This document shows, piece by piece, positions 1 through 22,580 of a stretch of 32,629 bases of DNA. Position 1 is the first letter of the stretch. Each line of letters opens with the position of its first letter. The translations under genes and the position numbers were made by a program. The notes beneath the pieces are model-generated. The model was given only the letters and a program-made list of their open reading frames with translations, made no database searches and was not told the DNA's origin. This DNA comes from Bacteriovoracia bacterium (GTDB lineage Bacteria; Bdellovibrionota; Bacteriovoracia; Bacteriovoracales; Bacteriovoracaceae). Location: the NCBI GenBank assembly GCA_030426585.1, contig JAUHYH010000006.1:1-32629 (forward strand), in the 5' to 3' direction.

Positions 1-33
1 ATAACTCCAATACTTTTCCATCCACATGGGAAA

Positions 34-42
34 TGTGGAAAA
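34..42 (-). promoter_or_regulatory. DnaA-box-like 9-mer TTTTCCACA
   Basis: TGTGGAAAA on + strand; complement fits TTWTNCACA. It is part of a small hairpin TCCACAT-GGGAA-ATGTGGA. Confidence 0.35.
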
Positions 43-44
43 AC

Positions 45-62
45 TATTTGAGTACTCAAATA
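45..62. repeat. 18-bp perfect palindrome TATTTGAGTACTCAAATA (motif family B core TGAGTACTCA)
   Basis: Read directly; the core recurs at 19615 and 19666, and the TGACTACTCA variant at 18602, 19597 and 19695. Confidence 0.8.
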
Positions 63-93
63 ATTGAAGCAATTTTAGATACTTGGGTAACAA

Positions 94-288
94 TTAAAAT
101 TTTGGCCGATCCTTTCCAGGAAGGGCTGCAGCAAGAGCAATTACTGTTACAATTGAGAATATATAGCCCAGAAAGAACCAAAGTATCTGACTTTTGTTCA
201 TGCTCTTGGCCATACGGCATGAGAGAAGTGCGCAGATAAGTCCAAAAATAAAGTAGCTTGGAAAAAATTCTGCTAGCAAAAGGTCCAT
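94..288 (-). CDS. small hydrophobic membrane protein (64 aa)
   Basis: ORF immediately downstream of yidC on the same strand; two hydrophobic segments. Confidence 0.5.
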   Translation of the reverse strand: MDLLLAEFFPSYFIFGLICALLSCRMAKSMNKSQILWFFLGYIFSIVTVIALAAALPGKDRPKF

Positions 289-297
289 TAACTCAGA

Positions 298-1770
298 CTA
301 AGCTTTAACTTTTTTCAACACAAGCATCTGCATTACGATAGCAATGAGCGTTGAAACGAAGATGTAAAGGTTGAGCCCACTTGGAAGGTCTTTCATGATG
401 AACCCAAAAACAATTGGCATAATCATCATGACCTTTTGCTGAGCAGGGTCAGTAGTAGCGGTCGGTGTTAATTTTTGTTGAAGAAACATTGCTCCTGTCA
501 TTAAAACTGGAAGGACGTAATACGGATCTTTTTGACTAAGATCTGTAATCCAGAAATAAAACGGCGCATTAACAAGCTCAACGGCATTATAGAGAACTTT
601 ATAAAAAGCGAAAAAGATAGGCATCTGGAGAAGTAGAGGGAAGCATCCACTAAGAGGATTGGCTCCGGCCCTTTTGAAAAGTTCCATGCTTTCTTTTTGC
701 AATCTTTGCGGGTTGTCCTTGAATTTCTCTTGGATTTTTTTGAGTTCAGGCTGAATAACCTGCATCTTCTTCATACTCTTTGTTGATTTATATTGAAGTG
801 GAAAGGTTAGAAGTCTAATAACAAAAGTTAGGAAGATAATAGCGATTCCGTAATTTAGGACTAGGCTGTAAAAAAACTGAAGTCCTCTTAAGATAGGGAC
901 TGCTATAAAAGAAAATATTCCAAAATTCACTGAGAGGTGAAGGTTTTCTCCCATCTTCTTAAGGAGGTCATAATTTTTCTTTATAAAAATAACATTAAAA
1001 TCTAATTTTCCTTCTTCGTTGAGGCTTAGGTAACTCGTTAAACTGTTGTCTGCTTCTGAAGTGCTGATATTAACAGGAGCTTTCTCTTTGAGGGTTACAG
1101 CAAATAAATGGAATAAGTAATCCATTCCGATCCAATTAACGGTAGCTGTTTCTTTGTCCTGTGAACCAACAGTTATTGTTTCAAGATCATTTGCAAGATA
1201 GGCAAAACTTCTGACCTGATAATTGTCGTTTTCTCCAGGAATAGATTGAAGTCTCATTTTTAGACTTATCGCTGTTGAGTTATTTTTCTTCTTAGCTTGA
1301 ATCGCAATTTTCCCGTTATCTAAAATTTTACCTTTCGCCTCAATACTGTTGTTTGAAATTTCAAATGAGTCTTCTGAAGTTTTTGTTAAAGAAAATCCGC
1401 CTGGAAGTGCACCTTGTTCTCCCATAACTGTAAATTTAAGAAGTGATTTCGTTTCGAAAACTTTATCTGCCGCAGAAACACCATTATAAGTAGCGTCTCT
1501 AAAGGTAAAAGAATCATCTAGGGTATAAGTGAATTCACCTTTAGAAATAGTTATAGCTTTACCTGTAGAAACCTCTGAATCAGTCTCTTGATTTGTGCTT
1601 GAGGTTTCTGTAACGAGTGAGTCTGTTTGTTTTTTTGTATCAACTTGAGTTTGAGTGATTGCGTTTTTGGTTTCAGGAGATTTTTGGGGAGCGAAGAAAA
1701 ATTGCCATGCAAATAGAATGACTCCAGAGATGAGGACGGCGGTTATGGCCCGACTTTGATCATTCTGCAT
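298..1770 (-). CDS. yidC: membrane protein insertase YidC
   Basis: N-terminal TM, periplasmic domain, then C-terminal core (KSMKKMQVIQPELKKIQEKFKDNPQRLQKESMELFKRAGANPLSGCFPLLLQMPIFFAFYKVL). Confidence 0.97.
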   Translation of the reverse strand: MQNDQSRAITAVLISGVILFAWQFFFAPQKSPETKNAITQTQVDTKKQTDSLVTETSSTNQETDSEVSTGKAITISKGEFTYTLDDSFTFRDATYNGVSAADKVFETKSLLKFTVMGEQGALPGGFSLTKTSEDSFEISNNSIEAKGKILDNGKIAIQAKKKNNSTAISLKMRLQSIPGENDNYQVRSFAYLANDLETITVGSQDKETATVNWIGMDYLFHLFAVTLKEKAPVNISTSEADNSLTSYLSLNEEGKLDFNVIFIKKNYDLLKKMGENLHLSVNFGIFSFIAVPILRGLQFFYSLVLNYGIAIIFLTFVIRLLTFPLQYKSTKSMKKMQVIQPELKKIQEKFKDNPQRLQKESMELFKRAGANPLSGCFPLLLQMPIFFAFYKVLYNAVELVNAPFYFWITDLSQKDPYYVLPVLMTGAMFLQQKLTPTATTDPAQQKVMMIMPIVFGFIMKDLPSGLNLYIFVSTLIAIVMQMLVLKKVKA

Positions 1771-2194
1771 TCTTAAACTCCTGGTTGGTAAACTCGATAA
1801 AACTAGACTTTAAATTGTTTAGTGAACCTAGCAGATTTGCTTCTTTTTTAAAACTATAAGGGTTAACGATAACGAGTGCATCGTAACCTTTTCTTTTAAA
1901 TTTAGAATGGCGAAAACTTTCTCTTAAGGTTCTTTTTATTTTATTTCTTATAACAGCATTTCCAACTTTTTTTGAAACACTGTAAGCAATTCTGGATTCT
2001 TGAAGATTATTTTTTTTATAGAAAATTCGAATGTGTGAATTTTGAAATCTAAGAGCGCCAACTCTAAGATTGGCGAAATCTTTTTTTAAACTTAAGCGAT
2101 GGTCCTTGGGTAGTTTGTGATCAAAAGAACTATTTTTGTCCTGTCGTAACAGTAAGTCTTTTTCTACCTTTAGCTCTTCTGCTTTTGATAACAT
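1760..2194 (-). CDS. rnpA: ribonuclease P protein component
   Basis: [13 protein letters not shown] and [28 protein letters not shown] signature; lies between rpmH and yidC. The ATG at 2194 makes it overlap rpmH. Confidence 0.93.
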
Positions 2195-2282
2195 TTCTTC
2201 CGTTTGGCGTAGACATGCGCTTAAGAAATCCGTGAGTTCTTAATCTCTTTGATCTTTTTGGTTGCCATGTTCTTTTGCTCAT
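2130..2282 (-). CDS. rpmH: 50S ribosomal protein L34
   Basis: Hand translation of the minus strand: [50 protein letters not shown]. 50 aa, so below the ORF-track cutoff. Confidence 0.96.
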
Positions 2283-2371
2283 TACCTTGTACTCCGACTT
2301 TTTACTTGAGGCGAAAAGTTAGCAAATTTAAGTTTTCGAGTCAAATCAATGTTGATAGCTTGGGTAACCAC

Positions 2372-2380
2372 TTTTCCACA
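2372..2380 (+). promoter_or_regulatory. DnaA-box-like 9-mer TTTTCCACA upstream of dnaA
   Basis: Fits TTWTNCACA; lies in the rpmH-dnaA intergenic region. Confidence 0.4.
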
Positions 2381-2408
2381 TTGTTTTTTGTTCAAAACAG
2401 GAGTTTTT

Positions 2409-3989
2409 ATGGACCAAAATTTTCCCCTGGGTAACTTTTTTTCTCCAAATAAAAACCCAGGTGAAAAGGCAAGTAATTCTAGTAACTTGCCAGCAAAAGA
2501 CGCAATTAGCAATAATGTGCAAAATAGCAGTTTTAGCACTGAGGAATTGTCTGCTATTACAAGTGAGGTGTTAGCAATTTTAAGACCTCAGCTAGGACAA
2601 GAAAAGTTTAGTGCTTATTTTGAAGGAGCTTTTCAAGCAAAATCCATAACACGAAGCGAAATAGAGTTTATTGTTCCTTCTCAGTTCACTAAAAAAATGA
2701 TTTCGGAGTATTACCTCGGGGACATCTCTCGAGCGATTCAAAGTATTCTTGGAAAAGAATACGAAATTGTTCTTTCAACTGTTTCTTCTCCGGTTGTCTT
2801 TAATGCCCCTAAAGTAGATGTAAAGCCTGTTAATAGCCCCTATAGCATAAATAAGGCTACTTCCGTTAAGGAAATGACCTTTTCTATTAATGATCTCAAG
2901 CCGCTTGGTGAGGACCTGCAAGCGAAGGTTGAAGGAACGGTTTTCGAGAAAGTTGAGTCTAGCTCCCCTTTTGGAAAAACGGTTGATACGAAAAAAACTT
3001 TCGATAACTTTGTTGTTGGGCCTTCAAACAATCTGGCTCACGCATCTTCTGTTGCAGTAACGAAGAATCCTGGAAAGGTTTATTCTTCGCTTTATATTCA
3101 CGGGAATTCAGGTTTAGGGAAAACTCACCTACTCCATGCCGTGGCCAATAAAATCAGCGAAGATTTCCCGGCGCTTAAAATCTACATCACGACTGCGAAT
3201 GAATTCATGTCTGAAATGATTGCAGCGATGAAAGAACAAGATATTCAGTCTTTCAGAAAGAAATACTCTGAAATGATCGATGTTCTTATGATCGATGATA
3301 TTCACGAGCTTAAAAACAGAACGGGAACTCAGAATGAGTTTTTTCATGTTTTCAATGAGCTTCAGAGAAAGAAAAAACAGTTAATCTTCACCTCTGATAA
3401 GGATCCGAAAGATATTACGGGGATCGAAGACCGTATTAAAACAAGACTGAGCTCTGCTCTGGTTGTCGAAATCCAACAACCGGATCTTGAAACAAGAATT
3501 GCTATTTTAAAGAAGAAAGCGATTGAAGAAGATATCTATCTTCCTGATGATGTTGTGAATCTTATTGCTAGTTGTATTAAGAGCAATATCCGTGAGCTTG
3601 AAGGATCTCTTATTAAGCTTGGTGCTTACTCTTCAGTTTTCAATGTTGATATCGATCTTGAAACAGCTAAAGAGCAATTAAAGCTTAATGAAGAAGATGA
3701 AAAGAAAACAGTAAACGTTGAAACCATCGCTAAGACAGTTTCAAATTATTATAAAATCCCAGTTCCAGATATTCGATCAAAAGCAAGAAATAAAGATATT
3801 ACGCTTGCTCGTCACGTTGCCATGTATTTCAGCTATTATATTGCTAAAGCGACTTTGGTTGAGATTGGTGAGTATTTCGGAAAAAGAGATCATACATCGG
3901 TTATGCATGGAGTGAATAAAATCAAAACGATGCAGAACAAAGAGGAATCATTCGCTCAGACGATGTATGAGATTGAGTCATTACTTTAG
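2409..3989 (+). CDS. dnaA: chromosomal replication initiator protein DnaA
   Basis: Walker A GNSGLGKTHLLHA, LMIDDIHEL, C-terminal EIGEYFGKRDHTSVMHGVNKI. Start placed at ATG 2409 because of AGGAG upstream (track ORF begins at 2349). Confidence 0.97.
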   Translation: MDQNFPLGNFFSPNKNPGEKASNSSNLPAKDAISNNVQNSSFSTEELSAITSEVLAILRPQLGQEKFSAYFEGAFQAKSITRSEIEFIVPSQFTKKMISEYYLGDISRAIQSILGKEYEIVLSTVSSPVVFNAPKVDVKPVNSPYSINKATSVKEMTFSINDLKPLGEDLQAKVEGTVFEKVESSSPFGKTVDTKKTFDNFVVGPSNNLAHASSVAVTKNPGKVYSSLYIHGNSGLGKTHLLHAVANKISEDFPALKIYITTANEFMSEMIAAMKEQDIQSFRKKYSEMIDVLMIDDIHELKNRTGTQNEFFHVFNELQRKKKQLIFTSDKDPKDITGIEDRIKTRLSSALVVEIQQPDLETRIAILKKKAIEEDIYLPDDVVNLIASCIKSNIRELEGSLIKLGAYSSVFNVDIDLETAKEQLKLNEEDEKKTVNVETIAKTVSNYYKIPVPDIRSKARNKDITLARHVAMYFSYYIAKATLVEIGEYFGKRDHTSVMHGVNKIKTMQNKEESFAQTMYEIESLL

Positions 3990-4015
3990 AATTTAATTGA
4001 AATTAATATGAGAAG

Positions 4016-4041
4016 AAGGGGCCTTTTGAGGCCCCTTTTTT
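4016..4041. terminator. bidirectional intrinsic terminator between dnaA and the convergent lipoprotein gene
   Basis: AAGGGGCC-TTTTGA-GGCCCCTT followed by a T-run. Confidence 0.85.
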
Positions 4042-4043
4042 AG

Positions 4044-5633
4044 TTATTCAGCTTTTTTTAGTATTGGGCATTCATCGTTGTCGTCATAACTTTGAAGGTT
4101 AAATGACGGTTTACCAGCATCATCTAAGGCAAAGTGTACGTAAACAGCAGTGCATGTACCTGTGGTACCGATTTTAACAATTTCTCCATTGGGATTTTGA
4201 AAAGTTTGTCCGCCATAAACAGTACCTGATTTAACATAGCTGAGCCCATTATGTGCGTAACTTAATCCTAATCTACCGTTTTTCGCAAAAGTGATTTCTT
4301 GGTCGTTGTACTTAATTTTCATATCAGAACCAAGACAATTGACCCCAAGGTCCCTTGATACAACACCATCACCTCTAACTCCAAATTGAAGGTTAATTTC
4401 ACAAGGCTCTGCATATGTTTCACCATTATCAGAATTGACTACAAGGTTTGACTCTACGCTTTTAACTGGAATTTCAAGAGAGTTGTTTTCATCATTTAGT
4501 GAATTAATTCTAAAACTTTTATCCGTTGAAAAACCAAATGAGCTAATTTGGTTTTTGTAAATACTTACCTCGCTGGCCTCAACATCAATTATGATTGACT
4601 CACCTTTTTCATTTATTATCCCCGAAGTATAAATATTTAGATTTGTGTAGCCGGTGAATCTTTTCCATTCGTCATCAAAGTTTTTCTCAGCCAAGACATA
4701 TCCTGATACATATCCCGAGTTCCCATGCATTGGATCTTCTTGAAAGTCCATATGTTCAATGAGCTTACTTTGACTCAACATTAATTCCATTGCCTCAGGA
4801 TTAAGTTCTTTGAAATCCAAACTAGAAGCAAGGGCGGTCAAGTTACGAGCCGGGAAGGTTGTATCTTTATCGCTTAAAGCTTGTGCCATATTAATTTGAA
4901 TGAGAATAAATTCATGAATTAATAATCCTGCCTTGTGATCATTGGACATTCTAGAGTAGTAATAGTCATCAATGAAAAGTAGTGGGCTTCCGACAACAAA
5001 CTCTTTTTCTTGTTTTGCAAGTTGTACCATTTTGCATTTTTTGTCTGAGAAATCGATGTCTGGTCTGAGATCTTTTAGGTCTTTAAGATTTACTTTTGGA
5101 TTAGAAGTAATGCCCTTGTTTATAAAACTAACCATCTTAGAGTTTAGATATTCGACTTTTTTTCCTTCTAAAAATCCAAGATAAGCTTCAGCATCTTCTC
5201 TCCATTTTTTCTCTAGGTTTGTTCCTTTGATTTTTTTGAAGATTCTCTCAAGAACTAGGTTGAATTTTTCTTTTACTGTTAGGTCTTCACTTCCCAAGTC
5301 TAGCGTGTATCCATTTCGGTATTCGGCTTCAATAAAATCCCAAAGGTAAACGTTTTCTAGTTTTCCTTGGTCGTCGTAACAAGCGACTCCGTCTCCCCCG
5401 CTCCCTGTTCTGACTCCTTGATTGTCTGGTGTTGGCGATTTTGCAGGTGTCGCTGCTGGTGTCGGTGTAACAGAGGGGGTAAAACTTGGAACGGGTAATG
5501 CTGCTGATGAGCTACTTGGTGTGCTACTCCCACTTGGTTGAGTGATAATCCTTGTAGACTCGCTTTTACAAGAAACGAGAGTTAAGGCTAGTGTTGACGC
5601 GAGGGCGATTTTTCTAAGTTTTGCAGTTTTCAT
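4044..5633 (-). CDS. secreted lipoprotein of unknown function
   Basis: Start at internal Met (MKTAKLRKIALASTLALTLVSC: lipobox LVSC), then Ser/Pro/Thr-rich linker and GGDGVACYDDQGKLENVYLWDFIEAEY. Confidence 0.8.
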   Translation of the reverse strand: MKTAKLRKIALASTLALTLVSCKSESTRIITQPSGSSTPSSSSAALPVPSFTPSVTPTPAATPAKSPTPDNQGVRTGSGGDGVACYDDQGKLENVYLWDFIEAEYRNGYTLDLGSEDLTVKEKFNLVLERIFKKIKGTNLEKKWREDAEAYLGFLEGKKVEYLNSKMVSFINKGITSNPKVNLKDLKDLRPDIDFSDKKCKMVQLAKQEKEFVVGSPLLFIDDYYYSRMSNDHKAGLLIHEFILIQINMAQALSDKDTTFPARNLTALASSLDFKELNPEAMELMLSQSKLIEHMDFQEDPMHGNSGYVSGYVLAEKNFDDEWKRFTGYTNLNIYTSGIINEKGESIIIDVEASEVSIYKNQISSFGFSTDKSFRINSLNDENNSLEIPVKSVESNLVVNSDNGETYAEPCEINLQFGVRGDGVVSRDLGVNCLGSDMKIKYNDQEITFAKNGRLGLSYAHNGLSYVKSGTVYGGQTFQNPNGEIVKIGTTGTCTAVYVHFALDDAGKPSFNLQSYDDNDECPILKKAE

Positions 5634-5752
5634 AATGATCTCCTTTATTTTACTTAAATAATTAATATTGATTGCTGCGAGTGAAAATTTAACAAAAAGT
5701 GTCAATTAAGTGGTATTAACTTCTAATTCATTTCTGCCGATATGTTTCCTAT

Positions 5753-6580
5753 ATGGAAAAAGTTAGTATTTACAGCTACTTAGATTACAGAAAATATGTC
5801 CTTGATAAGCTAAAAGAGGTAGAAAGTTCAGGCGGAAAGCTTTCTAGAAACCAGATTGCGAAGCAAATTAGGGTTCAGCCCCCCTATCTTTCAAAGGTTC
5901 TTTCTGGACGAGCGTTATTCAGTGAAGATCAGCTCTACCTTTTAGGCCGTTTTTTTCGGCTTTCCAGTGAAGAGCAGAACTATCTTTATCAGCTTTCTCA
6001 GTTCGAAAAAGCAGGATTGGAAGAACGAAAAAAAGAAATCAAAGAAACACTATTGCTCGTTCAAAAGAAAAAACTTTCTACTGAAGAACATATTGAAACA
6101 GAAGAACTAGATCGATCAAAAGATGAGGCAAGACGGTCTTATTACCTTGATCCACGACATTTATTGGTCCATGTATCACTTGCGCTTGATAAGTATTCAA
6201 CTGTACCAGAGCTCCTAATTGATGATTTGAAGCTATCTCAGCAGGATTTAGATACAATTATAAATAATCTTAGAACATTGGAGTTGGTTCAAAACATTGG
6301 ACCTAAATTAGTTTTAACAAAGTACAATGTTCACCTTAAGAAGGGCTCTGATCTTTATGTCCCTCATCAAAATCTTATGAGGCAGTTAACAACTCAAAGA
6401 ATGATGAATCCTGAAGATGATGATTATTCGCTTGCGATTAGTTTTTCATGCTCAAAAGAGGATAAAGAAAAAATAAAAAATCTCTTTTTGGGGTTTCTTA
6501 AGGCCTTTGATGACATTTTGGGTGATGCTAAGGATGAAGAGGTTTATCAATTAAACTTTGATCTATTTCAGTGGCTATAA
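5753..6580 (+). CDS. TIGR02147-like (DUF4423-type) regulator
   Basis: N-term IYSYLDYRKYVLDKLKE...SRNQIAKQIRVQPPYLSKVLSGRALFSEDQLYLLGRFFRLSSEEQNYL resembles this family; divergent from the lipoprotein gene. Confidence 0.75.
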   Translation: MEKVSIYSYLDYRKYVLDKLKEVESSGGKLSRNQIAKQIRVQPPYLSKVLSGRALFSEDQLYLLGRFFRLSSEEQNYLYQLSQFEKAGLEERKKEIKETLLLVQKKKLSTEEHIETEELDRSKDEARRSYYLDPRHLLVHVSLALDKYSTVPELLIDDLKLSQQDLDTIINNLRTLELVQNIGPKLVLTKYNVHLKKGSDLYVPHQNLMRQLTTQRMMNPEDDDYSLAISFSCSKEDKEKIKNLFLGFLKAFDDILGDAKDEEVYQLNFDLFQWL

Positions 6581-7969: not shown

Positions 7970-9817
7970 ATGGAATATGACTTAATTGTCATTGGCGGTG
8001 GTCACGCAGGTATTGAAGCCGTAAACATGGGTTCAAGTTTCGGATTAAAGACCGCCCTACTGACTATGCCTGGTGTAGGTATTGCTTCAGCTCCTTGTAA
8101 TCCTTGTGTTGGTGGGGTTGGTAAAGGTCAAGTTGTTCGAGAAATCGATGCACTTGGTGGCCTTATGGGAAAACTTGCTGATATGTCCGGGATTCAATAT
8201 CGAATTCTTAATGAATCAAAGGGCTTTGCCGTTCAATCAACCCGTGTTCAGATCGATAAGCAGCTTTATTCTAATAATGCAGAAAAGCTTGTTAGCTCTC
8301 TCCCCCATGTTTCAGTCATAAAAGAAAAAGTTAATAAAATTTGGAAAGAATCTGAATTGTTCCACGTGGAAACATCTGCTCGGACCTATAGAACCAAGAA
8401 AGTTATTCTCACTGTTGGAACATTTCTCAACGGAAAGCTGCACTGTGGGGATAAAACAACACTTGGTGGGCGAGAAGGTACGGAATCTTCTCTGAAAATG
8501 CAGGAATTATTCGAAGGAATCAGGGTTTTACCTCAAAGATTTAAAACGGGAACACCTGCAAGGCTTGATAGGGCGACAATTAACTACGAAAAGATGGAAA
8601 AACAGCCCTCTGATGGTAGAACTAGAAATTTTCATTACCAAAACTCCCCTTTTACCCGCCACGTGGAACAGCTAAATTGTTATTTGACCTATACGAATGA
8701 GCAAACCATGGGAATTATCAGGGATAATAAAGAAAAATCCCCAATGTTTAACGGTCAAATTCAGGGAATGGGCGCTAGATACTGTCCAAGTATTGAAGAT
8801 AAAGCCTATAGGTACCCTGATAAGAACATTCACCACGTTTTTGTAGAGCCGGAAGGTATTGATTTAGAGACTGTTTACCCCAGTGGGATCTCATCTTCGC
8901 TTCCCAAGGAGGCTCAAGAAGAGTTTATTGCCACGATTCCTGGTCTCGAGAAAGCAAAAATCATCCAATATGGTTATGCCGTCGAGTATGACGTAGTCGA
9001 TACCACTCAATTAGATAATACTTTAATGCTTAAATCGTGCCCGGGACTTTATTTTGCCGGACAAATCAATGGAACTAGCGGATATGAAGAGGCTGGGGGG
9101 CAAGGATTGGTTGCTGGTTTAAATGCAGCCCTTTCATTAAGCGGAAAAGAGCCGGTTGTTCCACGTAGAACAAATAGCTATATCGGCGTCATGATTGAGG
9201 ACCTAATTACCAATACAAGGGATGAGCCATATCGATTGTTTACTGCGAGAGCTGAAAACAGATTGTATATACGAGAAGATAATAGTTTTATTCGCATGCA
9301 CCCCTATAGGACCAACTTTGGGCTAAACCAGCCCATAGATAGGCATTTGGAGAATATGATTTCCCAATTTAAGCTCATCAACAAGCTCATAGAAAAAACA
9401 GAATTTAATAATTATTTCTACGAGGGAGAGCGATTTGGCCTTAATGAGTTTCTCGTTAGCCAAGAAAGAAAGCTGACACTTGGGGAAATATTAAAGTTAG
9501 CCTGGTTAGACCCGGTTGATGTTCTTAGCTTTGTTTTAGAAAAAGAGAAAATTTCCGTGAATTGGGATGTTCTAAATACCTGTGCAATTAGTGCAAAGTA
9601 CGAGGGATATATCGAACGAGCCAATCAGCAGTATATGAAAATGGCGAAGCTTGATACTAAAAAACTAGATCTTCCTTTGATTTTAGCTTCTGATAACGTT
9701 TCTTTTGAGTGTAAAAGAAGAATTGAGAAGATTTCACCCGAGACATTTGGTCAACTAAAGAGAATTAACGGTTTAAGGGCAGCTAGTTTAGCCGTTATTG
9801 CTAGTGGTGCTTATTAA
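7970..9817 (+). CDS. mnmG: tRNA uridine-5-carboxymethylaminomethyl modification enzyme MnmG
   Basis: DLIVIGGGHAGIEA, CNPCVGGVGKGQVVREIDALGG, GQINGTSGYEEAGGQGLVAGLNAA. Confidence 0.97.
   Translation: MEYDLIVIGGGHAGIEAVNMGSSFGLKTALLTMPGVGIASAPCNPCVGGVGKGQVVREIDALGGLMGKLADMSGIQYRILNESKGFAVQSTRVQIDKQLYSNNAEKLVSSLPHVSVIKEKVNKIWKESELFHVETSARTYRTKKVILTVGTFLNGKLHCGDKTTLGGREGTESSLKMQELFEGIRVLPQRFKTGTPARLDRATINYEKMEKQPSDGRTRNFHYQNSPFTRHVEQLNCYLTYTNEQTMGIIRDNKEKSPMFNGQIQGMGARYCPSIEDKAYRYPDKNIHHVFVEPEGIDLETVYPSGISSSLPKEAQEEFIATIPGLEKAKIIQYGYAVEYDVVDTTQLDNTLMLKSCPGLYFAGQINGTSGYEEAGGQGLVAGLNAALSLSGKEPVVPRRTNSYIGVMIEDLITNTRDEPYRLFTARAENRLYIREDNSFIRMHPYRTNFGLNQPIDRHLENMISQFKLINKLIEKTEFNNYFYEGERFGLNEFLVSQERKLTLGEILKLAWLDPVDVLSFVLEKEKISVNWDVLNTCAISAKYEGYIERANQQYMKMAKLDTKKLDLPLILASDNVSFECKRRIEKISPETFGQLKRINGLRAASLAVIASGAY
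8358..8373. promoter_or_regulatory. parS-like site TGTTCCACGTGGAAAC
   Basis: Near-exact match to the bacterial parS consensus (TGTTNCACGTGNAACA). Confidence 0.8.
8381..8396. repeat. motif family A variant CGGACCTATAGAACCA
   Basis: Right half TATAGAACCA exact; in mnmG in a reading frame different from the mnmE copies. Confidence 0.55.
8655..8670. promoter_or_regulatory. degenerate parS-like site CCCGCCACGTGGAACA
   Basis: Right half CACGTGGAACA exact, left half degenerate. Confidence 0.5.
9157..9172. promoter_or_regulatory. parS-like site TGTTCCACGTAGAACA
   Basis: 16-bp near-palindrome matching parS apart from one central asymmetry. Confidence 0.8.
9299..9314. repeat. motif family A variant CACCCCTATAGGACCA
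   Basis: Right half TATAGGACCA matches the family; in mnmG. Confidence 0.5.
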
Positions 9818-10443
9818 TGGATGAAAATACCTTCTGTCGGAAGTATCTCGATCTTATACAGGGGCCTTATAAGGGTATAAACCTCACCAGGATCACTGAT
9901 GTTGAAGAGTTTCGGATTAAGCAATACCAAGATTCCGTAATCCCTTTCAGAAATTTTAAGTTTGACTCTATAGGGGCAAAAATCTTTGATATTGGTTTTG
10001 GTGGGGGCTTTCCAGTTCTGCCTCTTGCTAATGAATTCCCCGAAGTATCTTTTATGGGCATTGAAACTAGAAATAAAAAAGTAAAAGTTGTTGGGGAAAT
10101 ATCTGAAGCACTGGGTTTAAAAAATACGAAGTTTATTCACGGAAGATTCGAGGAGTTTCTCTATCCTGCGGGCTCAATTGTCGTGAACAAAGCGGTGGCT
10201 ACAGTAAAAAAAGTACTTGATAATATTAGTGTCGAAAAAGATGTAACTATCTGTTTTTATAAAGGTCCAAACTTTTTTACATTAGAGGGGAAAGAGTTGG
10301 AGACAATCGAAGACAATTGGTCCATTATGGGCAAAGAGGAATACAGCCTTTCCAATGGAGACCCTAGAGTGTTTTTTATTGTGAAATCTAAAAATGTTCT
10401 ACGTAGAACAAATCAAAAAAACTTAACAAAATTAATAGGTTAA
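9817..10443 (+). CDS. rsmG: 16S rRNA (guanine-N7) methyltransferase RsmG
   Basis: IFDIGFGGGFPVLPLANEFPEVSFMGIETRNKKVKVVGEIS; position between mnmG and parA. Confidence 0.93.
   Translation: MDENTFCRKYLDLIQGPYKGINLTRITDVEEFRIKQYQDSVIPFRNFKFDSIGAKIFDIGFGGGFPVLPLANEFPEVSFMGIETRNKKVKVVGEISEALGLKNTKFIHGRFEEFLYPAGSIVVNKAVATVKKVLDNISVEKDVTICFYKGPNFFTLEGKELETIEDNWSIMGKEEYSLSNGDPRVFFIVKSKNVLRRTNQKNLTKLIG
9963..9978. repeat. motif family A variant TGACTCTATAGGGGCA
   Basis: Shares TCYATAGGGGCA with the copy at 7666. Confidence 0.5.
10395..10410. promoter_or_regulatory. parS-like site TGTTCTACGTAGAACA (perfect 16-bp palindrome)
   Basis: Read directly; 40 bp upstream of the parA start, inside the 3' end of rsmG. 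Confidence 0.8.
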
Positions 10444-18588: not shown

Positions 18589-18601
18589 TCTGATTAGTCA
18601 G

Positions 18602-18611
18602 TGACTACTCA
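18602..18611. repeat. motif family B site TGACTACTCA in the atpC-to-18695 intergenic region
   Basis: Read directly. Confidence 0.7.
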
Positions 18612-18694
18612 GTGTTGGGTAATCACAATCTTTTGAAATCATTGATATTTTTCTTTTATGAAGTCAGAGTTGCTTTAAAATAATAAGTAACTTT

Positions 18695-21049
18695 ATGTTA
18701 CGTAAGATTCTAATATCCCTATTATTGATCGCTTGTTTGGGTAGTGCCTACCTTTTCTATGTCGTTGACCAGGGTCTTAATAAAACAGTTAAAAAAGCCA
18801 TTAAAACCAGTATTAAGGTAACGAAGCAAACTCGTATTCCGGCTACAGAGAAAGTAACGGAAACGACAGTGGTAAAAACAGAAGAAAAATCAAAGCCAAA
18901 TGTTTTACAGAAAATTTCTGAAAAATCTAACGAGCTCATGGCCGAGGTTAGTCAGAAAATTATGTACAACCGAGAAAGTAAAAAAGTTGAAAAAATTGAG
19001 AAAGTAGAAAAAGAAGAGAAAAAAGAAACTAAAAAAATAATTGAAAAAAAGACGGTAGAAAATAAAAAGCCACAAGCTTACTCTGAGCCACTCTATGCAC
19101 CAGACGAAATTGCAACAGATAATATGGTAATTGATTCTGAAGATAAATTTGTTCACTATGGTTACGAAGTAGAAGTTTCCATTGAGGCAGTAGACCTGGT
19201 TGCAATTGCAAATAATGTTCTTAAAGAAACTTATTATACTGAAGTAACTTCCGGGGTTGAGGTTGCTGAAACAGAGCCGGTAATTGAAAAGGCAATTGAA
19301 GAAGAACTTTTTGAAGTTGTTCTTGATGAAGAAAAAATTGTTAATGATGAATTGACCTATCGATACAGTGCTAACAAAAAAGATTTCAAAATAATTAAGC
19401 CAGAAAAAGTTGTTAAAAAAGAAGCGCCAAAACTGCTTGTTGTTGAGGCGAGTGAGAGCATTAATAAAAATGAAGCTATTGAAGAACCGATCAGTGATAA
19501 GGAATTGTCCAAAGTTCCTGAGCAAGAGATTGAAAAGGCCGTAAAAACGGATGCTGTGCCCGTAAAGAAAGAGAAAACTGATGACTTAGTGTTTTATGAC
19601 TACTCAGCGGAGGGTGAGTACTCAACTGCCCCTACGGAACCAGTCAAAGCAAAAGAAAGCAAGCCTGAGTACTCAAACAAAATAGCTCCAGTTTTGACTA
19701 CTCAAAGTGCCCCCGTAGAACCAGCAAAGACGAAACCAAGAAAGTGGACATTTAATAATGATGAAAGAGTTGCTAGAGCGACTCCTCCACAAGATCCGGC
19801 CACGCTTGCAAGCACTGTTCCGAACATCCCTAATATTTCTGATGAAACCGAAAAGAAAGATGACTACAAAGGGAAGGAATCATTTTCAACAAGCTCTTCA
19901 GCTTTAGAAGTAGAAGTTCTCTATGTCTATGGAGATAAAGAAGATTCATCAATGGCGCCATTTGAAATAGACTTCGCAGATAGCGGGGAGCGAATTGATT
20001 CAGCATACGAAGGATTTATTAAATTAGATCACTCTCTAAATAGTGAATCTGGGGTGAGAAGAGGTCGTGTTGCAAGTGCAGACTTTATTTCAACCATTGT
20101 TGATTTTTCAATACATAAAAATGAAACATCACAATACTTGGTACCAATGCTTTCAAGAAAATTTTGGTATGACTTTATTGATGACAACAAGATTGACGAG
20201 TTCAAGGCTTCAATTCTTATTAAAATTGATGATCAAATTGTCGTAAGTCCTGAAAATATTGAAGTGACTCCGTTTTACTTTGACTCAGAATTTAGACTTG
20301 TGGAAAAAAGAAGCCAAGCCAGTTATGAACTTTATGCAGGTTTAGAGTCAGGGAATATTACGTTGAGGTTTGACGACGGAGAAGGTGAAGGTTTTAAAGA
20401 TGTAACCTTACAAAACTCTGTTATTTATTATGAAAGATCTGATGCAAAGTTAAGAGATATAACCTTATCCTTGAACGAAAGAACAATTCTTGGAACATCG
20501 AGCGCGCCTTTAGATCTTCCAGAGAGCAAGATTGTTCAGATGTATTTGAATGAGAAAAGTTCGAAGCGAGGCGTGAACGCCTATGAGTTCAAAGATGTTT
20601 TAGTTCCATCGGGCTCAAGAGCCTATTTTCAAATCTATAATAAAGCCAATATTGACGTAGGTATAGGTTCAAGTCTTTCGAGAGTTGAAGTACCTTCTCT
20701 AGCATTCAAAGAAGAAGTTTTTGAAAAGCTAGACGTAAGAAACCCAGAAAGTTTATGTGTGATTCAGATTAATCTTCCTCATGATAAAGAACTCGACCTG
20801 ATTAACTTAAAAGGTGAGGGTATTATTTCTGAAGGAGATGAAAGTAAAATTATGCATACTGAGTATCACGCCTTTGATTCAGATGGAAAATTCTATAGTG
20901 AGTTTGGAAAAGACTCAAAGAAAATTTTTGTTATTGGAGAAGGTACAGGATACGTAAACATTCATCTAGGATACCTAGATGATACTCAAGATCATATACT
21001 TTCAGTCTGTGACAGTTCGTACACAGTTGAAGGTTTAAACCTCAGATAA
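18695..21049 (+). CDS. 784-aa protein of unknown function, N-terminal TM/signal anchor, Lys/Glu-rich linker, possibly beta-rich C-terminal half
   Basis: MLRKILISLLLIACLGSAYLFYVVDQG then charged low-complexity region; no family recognised. Confidence 0.8.
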   Translation: MLRKILISLLLIACLGSAYLFYVVDQGLNKTVKKAIKTSIKVTKQTRIPATEKVTETTVVKTEEKSKPNVLQKISEKSNELMAEVSQKIMYNRESKKVEKIEKVEKEEKKETKKIIEKKTVENKKPQAYSEPLYAPDEIATDNMVIDSEDKFVHYGYEVEVSIEAVDLVAIANNVLKETYYTEVTSGVEVAETEPVIEKAIEEELFEVVLDEEKIVNDELTYRYSANKKDFKIIKPEKVVKKEAPKLLVVEASESINKNEAIEEPISDKELSKVPEQEIEKAVKTDAVPVKKEKTDDLVFYDYSAEGEYSTAPTEPVKAKESKPEYSNKIAPVLTTQSAPVEPAKTKPRKWTFNNDERVARATPPQDPATLASTVPNIPNISDETEKKDDYKGKESFSTSSSALEVEVLYVYGDKEDSSMAPFEIDFADSGERIDSAYEGFIKLDHSLNSESGVRRGRVASADFISTIVDFSIHKNETSQYLVPMLSRKFWYDFIDDNKIDEFKASILIKIDDQIVVSPENIEVTPFYFDSEFRLVEKRSQASYELYAGLESGNITLRFDDGEGEGFKDVTLQNSVIYYERSDAKLRDITLSLNERTILGTSSAPLDLPESKIVQMYLNEKSSKRGVNAYEFKDVLVPSGSRAYFQIYNKANIDVGIGSSLSRVEVPSLAFKEEVFEKLDVRNPESLCVIQINLPHDKELDLINLKGEGIISEGDESKIMHTEYHAFDSDGKFYSEFGKDSKKIFVIGEGTGYVNIHLGYLDDTQDHILSVCDSSYTVEGLNLR
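19597..19606. repeat. motif family B site TGACTACTCA
   Basis: Read directly (encodes DYS). Confidence 0.7.
19615..19624. repeat. motif family B site TGAGTACTCA (perfect palindrome)
   Basis: Read directly (encodes EYS). Confidence 0.75.
19627..19642. repeat. motif family A variant TGCCCCTACGGAACCA
   Basis: Read directly, 2 nt after a family B site. Confidence 0.55.
19666..19675. repeat. motif family B site TGAGTACTCA
   Basis: Read directly (encodes EYS). Confidence 0.75.
19695..19704. repeat. motif family B site TGACTACTCA in a different reading frame
   Basis: Read directly (encodes LTTQ, not YS). Confidence 0.7.
19708..19723. repeat. motif family A variant TGCCCCCGTAGAACCA
   Basis: Read directly, 3 nt after a family B site. 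Confidence 0.55.
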
Positions 21050-22213
21050 ATCATTAAAAACTTGCATTGTTTTCTTATAGCCCTGACGGATAACAAGGGC
21101 CATGGCATCTGATTCTAATGAAAATTGGTTGGTGAAAAAGGTTCTATAGTCTTTGTGATCAGGGTAGATATCAATGAACTTCAAATTACCTTTGTAACTA
21201 AGTTTCGATTCAAGGATTCGAATAATTTCTTTGCTATGCCTTTCACTAAAGTTTTCTGTTTTCATATAAGAATGAACTGTTTTAAGCAAGTCTTCCGCAG
21301 TTTTAAATTGAGCCCTAGCAGTAACAATCTTTTTTTGAATCATTAGGAAAATTGATTGTATTGCAATGCTTGGAATTCCATAGTGGGCAAGAGAACCGAT
21401 CTCGTCATGAAAGTGATAAGGAGTGTGAGTCCAGGAACTGATAATAATTTCGCAGTTATTATCAATTGCAACGTGGGTTGAAAGAGTGTCTCGAATTTCT
21501 CCATCAATATAATAGTCAACGTCGCCTGTTCTTTCATTTTTAATAGGAAAAGGGGTGTAAAAAGGAGGTACGGCCATACTGGCAGCAACAGCATCTGAAA
21601 TTTTAGTATCTGTATAATAATGAGAAGTAGAATCATGAGTAGGATTTGGGTAATTATATTTACTAAAAATAACTTTTTTAGAGCTATCGAGTTGAGTGGC
21701 TACGACAAAGAGGTCTACATCAAGTCCATCAAAGTCTTCGGCCTTAAGGACATGTTCAATGAGGTACTTCCTTAACCCTTCTGTTGAGAAGAAACCAGAA
21801 GTGCTAAGAAAGGGTTTAACGATTTTTTTAATTAAATAAGGGAAGCCCTCAAGAGGATCAAAAAACTCTGGCTTCTTGGTTTTAATATCAGGTCTTTTTA
21901 AGTAGAGCATGTCTTTGTAACCAACAGCCCTGAGTTTTCCTTTTTTACCGATAGTAGCGTCGATAATCTCATGTGGACTAAAGCCATTGGCAAAATAAGT
22001 GCTAATCATCGCCCCGGCACTTGAGCCGACGTATGTGTTAATATTGAGTTCATCGTCTTTCTCACGGACTTTATTGAAGCCTCCGAGACGAAAACCTAGT
22101 TCTTCTAGGGCGAGACTAACTCCGAGGTGCCAGGCAGCTGCTTTAACAACACCACCAGACATTACGAGGCCAATTTTTTTATTTTTAAATGAGTTCAGGA
22201 CTTCTTGTGTCAT
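21035..22213 (-). CDS. patatin-like phospholipase family protein
   Basis: GLVMSGGVVKAAAWHLGVSLALEELG, GxSxG motif in YVGSSAGAM, DG in YYIDGEIRDT. Confidence 0.88.
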   Translation of the reverse strand: MTQEVLNSFKNKKIGLVMSGGVVKAAAWHLGVSLALEELGFRLGGFNKVREKDDELNINTYVGSSAGAMISTYFANGFSPHEIIDATIGKKGKLRAVGYKDMLYLKRPDIKTKKPEFFDPLEGFPYLIKKIVKPFLSTSGFFSTEGLRKYLIEHVLKAEDFDGLDVDLFVVATQLDSSKKVIFSKYNYPNPTHDSTSHYYTDTKISDAVAASMAVPPFYTPFPIKNERTGDVDYYIDGEIRDTLSTHVAIDNNCEIIISSWTHTPYHFHDEIGSLAHYGIPSIAIQSIFLMIQKKIVTARAQFKTAEDLLKTVHSYMKTENFSERHSKEIIRILESKLSYKGNLKFIDIYPDHKDYRTFFTNQFSLESDAMALVIRQGYKKTMQVFNDLSEV

Positions 22214-22265: not shown

Positions 22266-22580
22266 ATGGAAATAAATCAGCAAGGAAAGTGGTTATCCAT
22301 TCTAGACTATGCACAGCATAGAGATGTGTCTATTTCAAGTATCAGGCGATACATCAAAGCTGGTCGAGTAAAATATAAGCAAGAAAAAGGTAAGTATTTT
22401 ATTTGGGTATCCAATTATTCTGAACCCGTTGAAACCAAATCCGATAATAAATTACTTTTAGATAAAATAAAAAGTCTTCAAGAAGAGAATCAAGAACTCA
22501 GAATGCTTGTTGATCTCTACGAAGAACAAATGAGAAAAAAACCAAAAAATGTTGAATTGCCTGAAATACCTATGCACTAG
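22266..22580 (+). CDS. MerR/excisionase-like HTH protein with C-terminal coiled coil
   Basis: WLSILDYAQHRDVSISSIRRYIKAGRVKYKQEKGKYFIWV followed by heptad-like KIKSLQEENQELRMLVDLYEEQM. Confidence 0.6.
   Translation: MEINQQGKWLSILDYAQHRDVSISSIRRYIKAGRVKYKQEKGKYFIWVSNYSEPVETKSDNKLLLDKIKSLQEENQELRMLVDLYEEQMRKKPKNVELPEIPMH

Follow-up and report, generated by a model that had tools for sequence, protein, structure and literature searches.

Short palindromes of the consensus TGANTANTCA form an array close to the replication origin in the Bacteriovoracaceae and Halobacteriovoraceae (hereafter, the family). That this conserved, origin-proximal array is real is near certain. It is conserved, it is restricted to the origin region and it is constrained at the level of the DNA, including those of its sites that lie within a protein-coding gene.

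The stretch analysed here, 32,629 nucleotides in length (the window), is an origin region. It carries yidC-rnpA-dnaA, mnmEG-rsmG-parAB-bactofilin, the ATP synthase genes, a gene that we call X784, a patatin-like gene, the small gene p104, p493, ligA and a radA-like gene. The AtpD encoded here has its closest named relatives in Halobacteriovoraceae and Bacteriovoracaceae MAGs. The dnaA-rnpA-yidC segment (window 1-5705) runs in the opposite orientation to that in most of the family, an inversion common to the genome G046. An HTH gene of the TIGR02147/DUF4423 type lies near the origin (window 5753-6580) and had no counterpart in the other origin loci that were searched.

The palindromic sites of the window

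The consensus TGANTANTCA, with S preferred, was built from TGASTASTCA and its enriched single-base variants, TGAATASTCA and TGACTAATCA; the pattern TGASTACTCA is narrower and falls within it. A search of the window with the consensus returned seven copies, starting at positions 49, 18591, 18602, 19597, 19615, 19666 and 19695, and no others. All but the second of these are the TGASTACTCA copies that the earlier note had listed, each lying exactly where it had been placed, and the search bore out the statement that the window holds no further exact copy of that pattern. The list had overlooked the additional site at 18591. Counted on both strands, the window contains nine matches to TGASTACTCA, against a mean of 0.05 in shuffled windows.

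How are these sites disposed? The copy at the contig start (49-58) forms the centre of TATTTGAGTACTCAAATA (45-62), a perfect palindrome of 18 bp that adjoins the DnaA-box-like TTTTCCACA. Since the close relative G046, which has the same inversion, carries dnaN directly after yidC, this copy is probably part of oriC, on its dnaN side. Upstream of X784, TGATTAGTCA (18591-18600) directly adjoins TGACTACTCA (18602-18611), so that the intergenic site is in fact a tandem pair, with the start of X784 93 bp on. Four sites lie inside X784: TGACTACTCA at 19597-19606, read as YDYS; TGAGTACTCA at 19615-19624, read as GEYS; TGAGTACTCA again at 19666-19675, read as PEYS; and TGACTACTCA at 19695-19704, which falls in another frame and reads LTTQ. 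These readings, (D/E)YS in three cases and LTTQ in the fourth, are those given previously. An RNA hairpin or terminator at the intergenic site was considered and rejected (z of 0.12 and -0.67), as was a tandem or low-complexity repeat as the identity of the sites.

Constraint on the DNA within X784

X784 (18695-21049, + strand), the gene after atpC, has a signal- or lipobox-like N-terminus, a variable middle that bears the sites, and a conserved, all-beta C-terminal part. It has no match in Pfam, NCBIfam or the PDB, and a kinship to Ig-like beta proteins was rejected, the Foldseek matches (TM ≤ 0.21) not being meaningful. Its product evolves fast and is probably exported. X784 orthologues that lack sites are shorter, at 471-671 aa, than the site-bearing ones (625-1201 aa; p = 5e-6).

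Might the intragenic copies be nothing but chance repeats of codons or of protein? Some of them do encode (D/E)YS, and one copy, in an (F/Y)DYS context, is conserved as protein too. Against this, the in-gene copies are divided between both stop-free frames (28 and 30), and when 41 X784 genes were shuffled among synonymous codons in 500 runs, TGASTASTCA appeared 2.1 times on average and at most 8 times; 58 copies are observed. For the X784 of the window alone, none of 5000 synonymous shuffles reached the four copies present, and five control palindromes of the same type occur in X784 genes 0-1 times each. The (D/E)YS tripeptides of the orthologues are, moreover, nearly all written as palindrome DNA, with TCA for the serine and a preceding T. 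The use of both possible frames, together with 58 copies where shuffling predicts 2.1, places the constraint on the DNA. Chance repetition, which the intergenic copies also contradict, retains practically no probability, and the earlier note's argument that protein coding is insufficient to explain the palindrome family is strongly supported by the two frames, by the shuffling and by the intergenic and oriC copies. The aligned orthologues are only 19-24% identical to the X784 of the window, yet the sites persist in both frames: a clear case of putative DNA-binding sites that are better conserved than the protein sequence carrying them.

Number and placement of the sites

Is the palindrome enriched in the genome as a whole? 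It is not. The genome of the window contains 12 forward and 8 reverse matches to TGASTACTCA, where the reversed control pattern has 10 and 9, and in the related genomes searched the counts are likewise near control. The condition that the earlier note named as refuting its claim, a copy number at chance expectation, therefore holds for the count, but the placement is far from random.

This placement was measured in 49 family loci covering the end of atpC, one pair of which represents the same contig. Downstream of atpC, TGASTASTCA matches 16 times at 0-250 bp and 54 times at 750-1500 bp; in the 16 kb upstream of atpC at each locus, some 690 kb in total, it is almost absent. Relative to the start of X784, 36 sites lie between -222 and -56, none at 0-300, three between 0 and +600 and 89 between +600 and +1200. 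Gene insertions after atpC, seen at three loci (L069, L073 and L178), leave the sites beside X784 and at their usual distance from its start codon. The upstream and the intragenic sites are kept or lost together (26/30 versus 0/11, p = 4e-7). On a tree of 44 loci the array appears to be ancient, with several losses.

A scan for paired sites in 59 whole genomes found 15 places, all of them in the origin region, and none with the control. Twelve are the atpC-X784 array; the others are one in oriC, one at the 5' end of dnaA and one at mnmG-rsmG. The dnaA-dnaN gap, which is oriC in Bdellovibrio and the predicted oriC in Halobacteriovorax (PMC5124646), holds sites in about 10 of some 34 genomes. 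Sites are found in oriC in two genera that have no X784 array, g13 and that of G045. Between the two species represented by G002 and G062, sites beyond the origin region are conserved only upstream of mtnP-rsmH and at the start of an rpsA-like gene, where the site is coding. The former, about 30 bp upstream of mtnP-rsmH and near a penicillin-binding protein gene (L221:1335, L201:1666), is conserved in two species of one genus.

Sites in other families of the phylum

Paired sites also turn up beyond the family, in a scan of 241 genomes. In family f8, two-part arrays again occur downstream of atpC, before and within a gene that is not detectably X784. In five families (f6, f11, f21, f23 and f26) the sites lie between patatin and p104, the divergent genes that follow X784 in the window. 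Forty-one of the 45 sites near patatin, from 27 genomes, fall within 500 bp upstream of patatin, beside p104, and in the surrounding 20 kb nearly all sites sit between the two genes. In G117, assembled as a single contig, about 35 kb separate this place from dnaA. The largest, Bdellovibrio-like genus of f6 has p104; full sites are absent there, and the half-sites TANTCA/TGANTA are enriched. The paired sites of families f12 and f15, and one pair in f8 (L359-L362, L366), show no link to the origin genes that were searched for; chance or plain coding conservation may account for them. At L359-L361 three genomes of a single f12 genus share an identical pair, which is located in coding DNA. In G136 (L373 / L408 13000-13310) eight TGANTANTCA sites lie outside the dnaA-dnaN gap, and six near-consensus DnaA boxes are interspersed among them.

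A candidate binder, p104

What protein might recognise the sites? The candidate is p104 (22266-22580, + strand), a protein of 104 aa with a MerR/Xis-type winged helix followed by a coiled coil. Its conserved divergent neighbour is the patatin-like gene (21035-22213, - strand), whose product matches an anti-phage phospholipase model only weakly and far below threshold. The AF2 model of p104 (pLDDT 80) places the HTH at residues 12-32, the wing at 37-48 and a helix at 57-91. Its best Foldseek matches are phage Xis and BldC, with probabilities of 0.99-1.00 and E-values of about 0.1, which are weak because the domain is small. RacA (5i44) ranks low (probability 0.57, E 0.76), and sequence searches of Pfam and the PDB gave no RacA match. 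A longer homologue in G136 matches DUF3972 just above the cut-off. The recognition helix, SxSTLRRxIK, is nearly invariant among 40 homologues, which fits a site that is unchanged across the phylum.

Twelve family loci reach past patatin. Eleven have both p104 and sites; the twelfth, G051, has neither, and only 66 bp separate its patatin gene from p493. This comparison leaves out several site-less genera (G003, G005, G006, G007, G010 and G023), as well as G040, in which p104 would lie beyond the contig end. The co-loss in G051, a single event, is suggestive rather than proof. In the window's own family, the sites do not lie in the p104 promoter. From its neighbourhood, its predicted fold and this one co-loss, we consider p104 the probable binder of the array.

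Proposed function and alternatives

How might the array work? A dimeric, sequence-specific protein, most likely p104, would occupy TGANTANTCA as its putative binding site. Dimers on separate palindromes would be joined through their coiled coils, and a bridge from the sites before and inside X784 to those in oriC would give a single nucleoprotein complex. Such a complex might repress or tune p104 or its neighbours (autoregulation) and, above all, would serve as a mark of the origin domain, by which it is segregated or anchored at the pole, in the manner of RacA in Bacillus and Par of pSK1. RacA, pSK1 Par and RocS, which segregate or anchor DNA, combine a winged helix with a coiled coil (PMC11500499), and in Bdellovibrio the origin is located at the invasive pole, where an unknown complex holds it (PMC11318664). 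It is because of this shared architecture and this pole-held origin that we favour origin marking or anchoring with autoregulation. As a whole the explanation is plausible enough to be advanced tentatively, more firmly in its choice of binder than in its anchoring step; an anchoring function for the array and p104, taken by itself, is possible but somewhat doubtful.

The main rival is ordinary transcriptional control, in which a repressor, be it p104 or another factor, would loop over X784 by way of promoter-proximal and intragenic operators and would autoregulate p104-patatin in other families, with no role in chromosome organisation. The constant distance of the sites from the X784 start despite gene insertions, the co-occurrence of upstream and intragenic sites and the location of the sites between divergent p104 and patatin in other families would all be expected of it. 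On the other hand, where X784 lacks sites they are found in oriC, dnaA or rsmG and, in the pair scan, never at distant promoters, and the two-part arrays of f8 occupy a post-atpC gene that is not detectably X784. We regard transcriptional looping as rather unlikely. Control of replication initiation comes third: the sites would recruit a regulator of DnaA/oriC, and the X784 array would be a titration or activation locus of the datA/DARS kind. While the oriC sites of about ten genomes and the array of G136, with its six DnaA boxes against 0.2 expected, accord with such a role, most other p104-patatin arrays show no enrichment of DnaA boxes and most genomes lack the oriC copy, which leaves it improbable.

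Could the array belong instead to a known type of site? The parS-like palindromes TGTTCCACGTAGAACA (9157-9172), ParB's own, and TGTTCTACGTAGAACA (10395-10410) are of a separate family, and parS/ParB was rejected as the identity of the array, the sites of which differ from the TGTTNCACGTGNAACA-type 16-mer. Parenthetically, parS-like palindromes occur in the window at 8358, 9157 and 10395, and such palindromes are conserved at about -3.4 and -0.95 kb of parB in most family genomes. Of 59 family genomes, 56 carry a second ParA-ParB pair beside a nadA-like gene (e.g. L249:872-2515, G000:C8). Its wide presence, and the fact that the parS of this ParB2 is unknown, would allow the array to be its centromere. 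However, G040, which is 99% complete, has five X784 sites and no ParB2; G007, G010 and G066 carry ParB2 without the array; S-type sites are absent at the parAB2 loci; and the readable HTH sequences, aligned validly for plus-strand loci only, are nearly alike in genomes with and without sites. ParB2 is accordingly disfavoured, and very unlikely. Still less credible are nucleoid occlusion sites for a SlmA-like TetR protein. The earlier note had remarked on a likeness to the SlmA operator, and the core TGAGTACTCA is indeed identical to that of GTGAGTACTCAC (PMC3116907), but the outer G...C of this 12-mer is not conserved at the array sites, which are few and all at the origin. G040, whose X784 contains five sites, encodes no TetR_N protein, although the control search was positive in 13 of 14 genomes. 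SlmA/TetR is thereby refuted as the general binder, and the likeness is, as far as tested, coincidental.

To return to the marking of the origin by p104, its widest form would be a second centromere throughout the Bdellovibrionota: a one-protein system of p104 and TGANTANTCA operating beside ParABS and supplying the polar origin anchor, with sites in the coding sequence of X784. So broad a reading is doubtful, if conceivable. If it is true, p104 and the array would provide the missing anchor of the origin at the cell pole in predatory bacteria. Site and protein form a concrete candidate pair that occurs throughout the phylum and can be tested directly.

Comparison with known systems

The roughly 50 SlmA binding sites of E. 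coli are spread over the chromosome, whereas those described here are few and origin-proximal. Closer in disposition is ParB-parS, in which short palindromes near the origin, likewise spread over coding and non-coding DNA, are conserved across a phylum; the sequence of the array is nevertheless unrelated to parS. Par of plasmid pSK1 and RocS of Streptococcus pneumoniae are single-protein segregation factors with a MerR-type winged HTH and a coiled coil, as predicted for p104 (PMC11500499). They differ in that they come from a plasmid or from Firmicutes; p104 is also shorter than they are, and no C-terminal membrane helix appears in its model. RacA of Bacillus subtilis has a different site sequence and serves sporulation, as the proposed p104 system does not; it has no sequence-level match to p104, the predicted fold of which is nearer to Xis and BldC. 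Yet the likenesses are several: a MerR-type winged HTH followed by a coiled coil, in p104 by predicted fold; repeated sites clustered in the origin region, to which p104 is putatively linked; and the anchoring of the chromosome, the role proposed here for p104 (PMC11500499).
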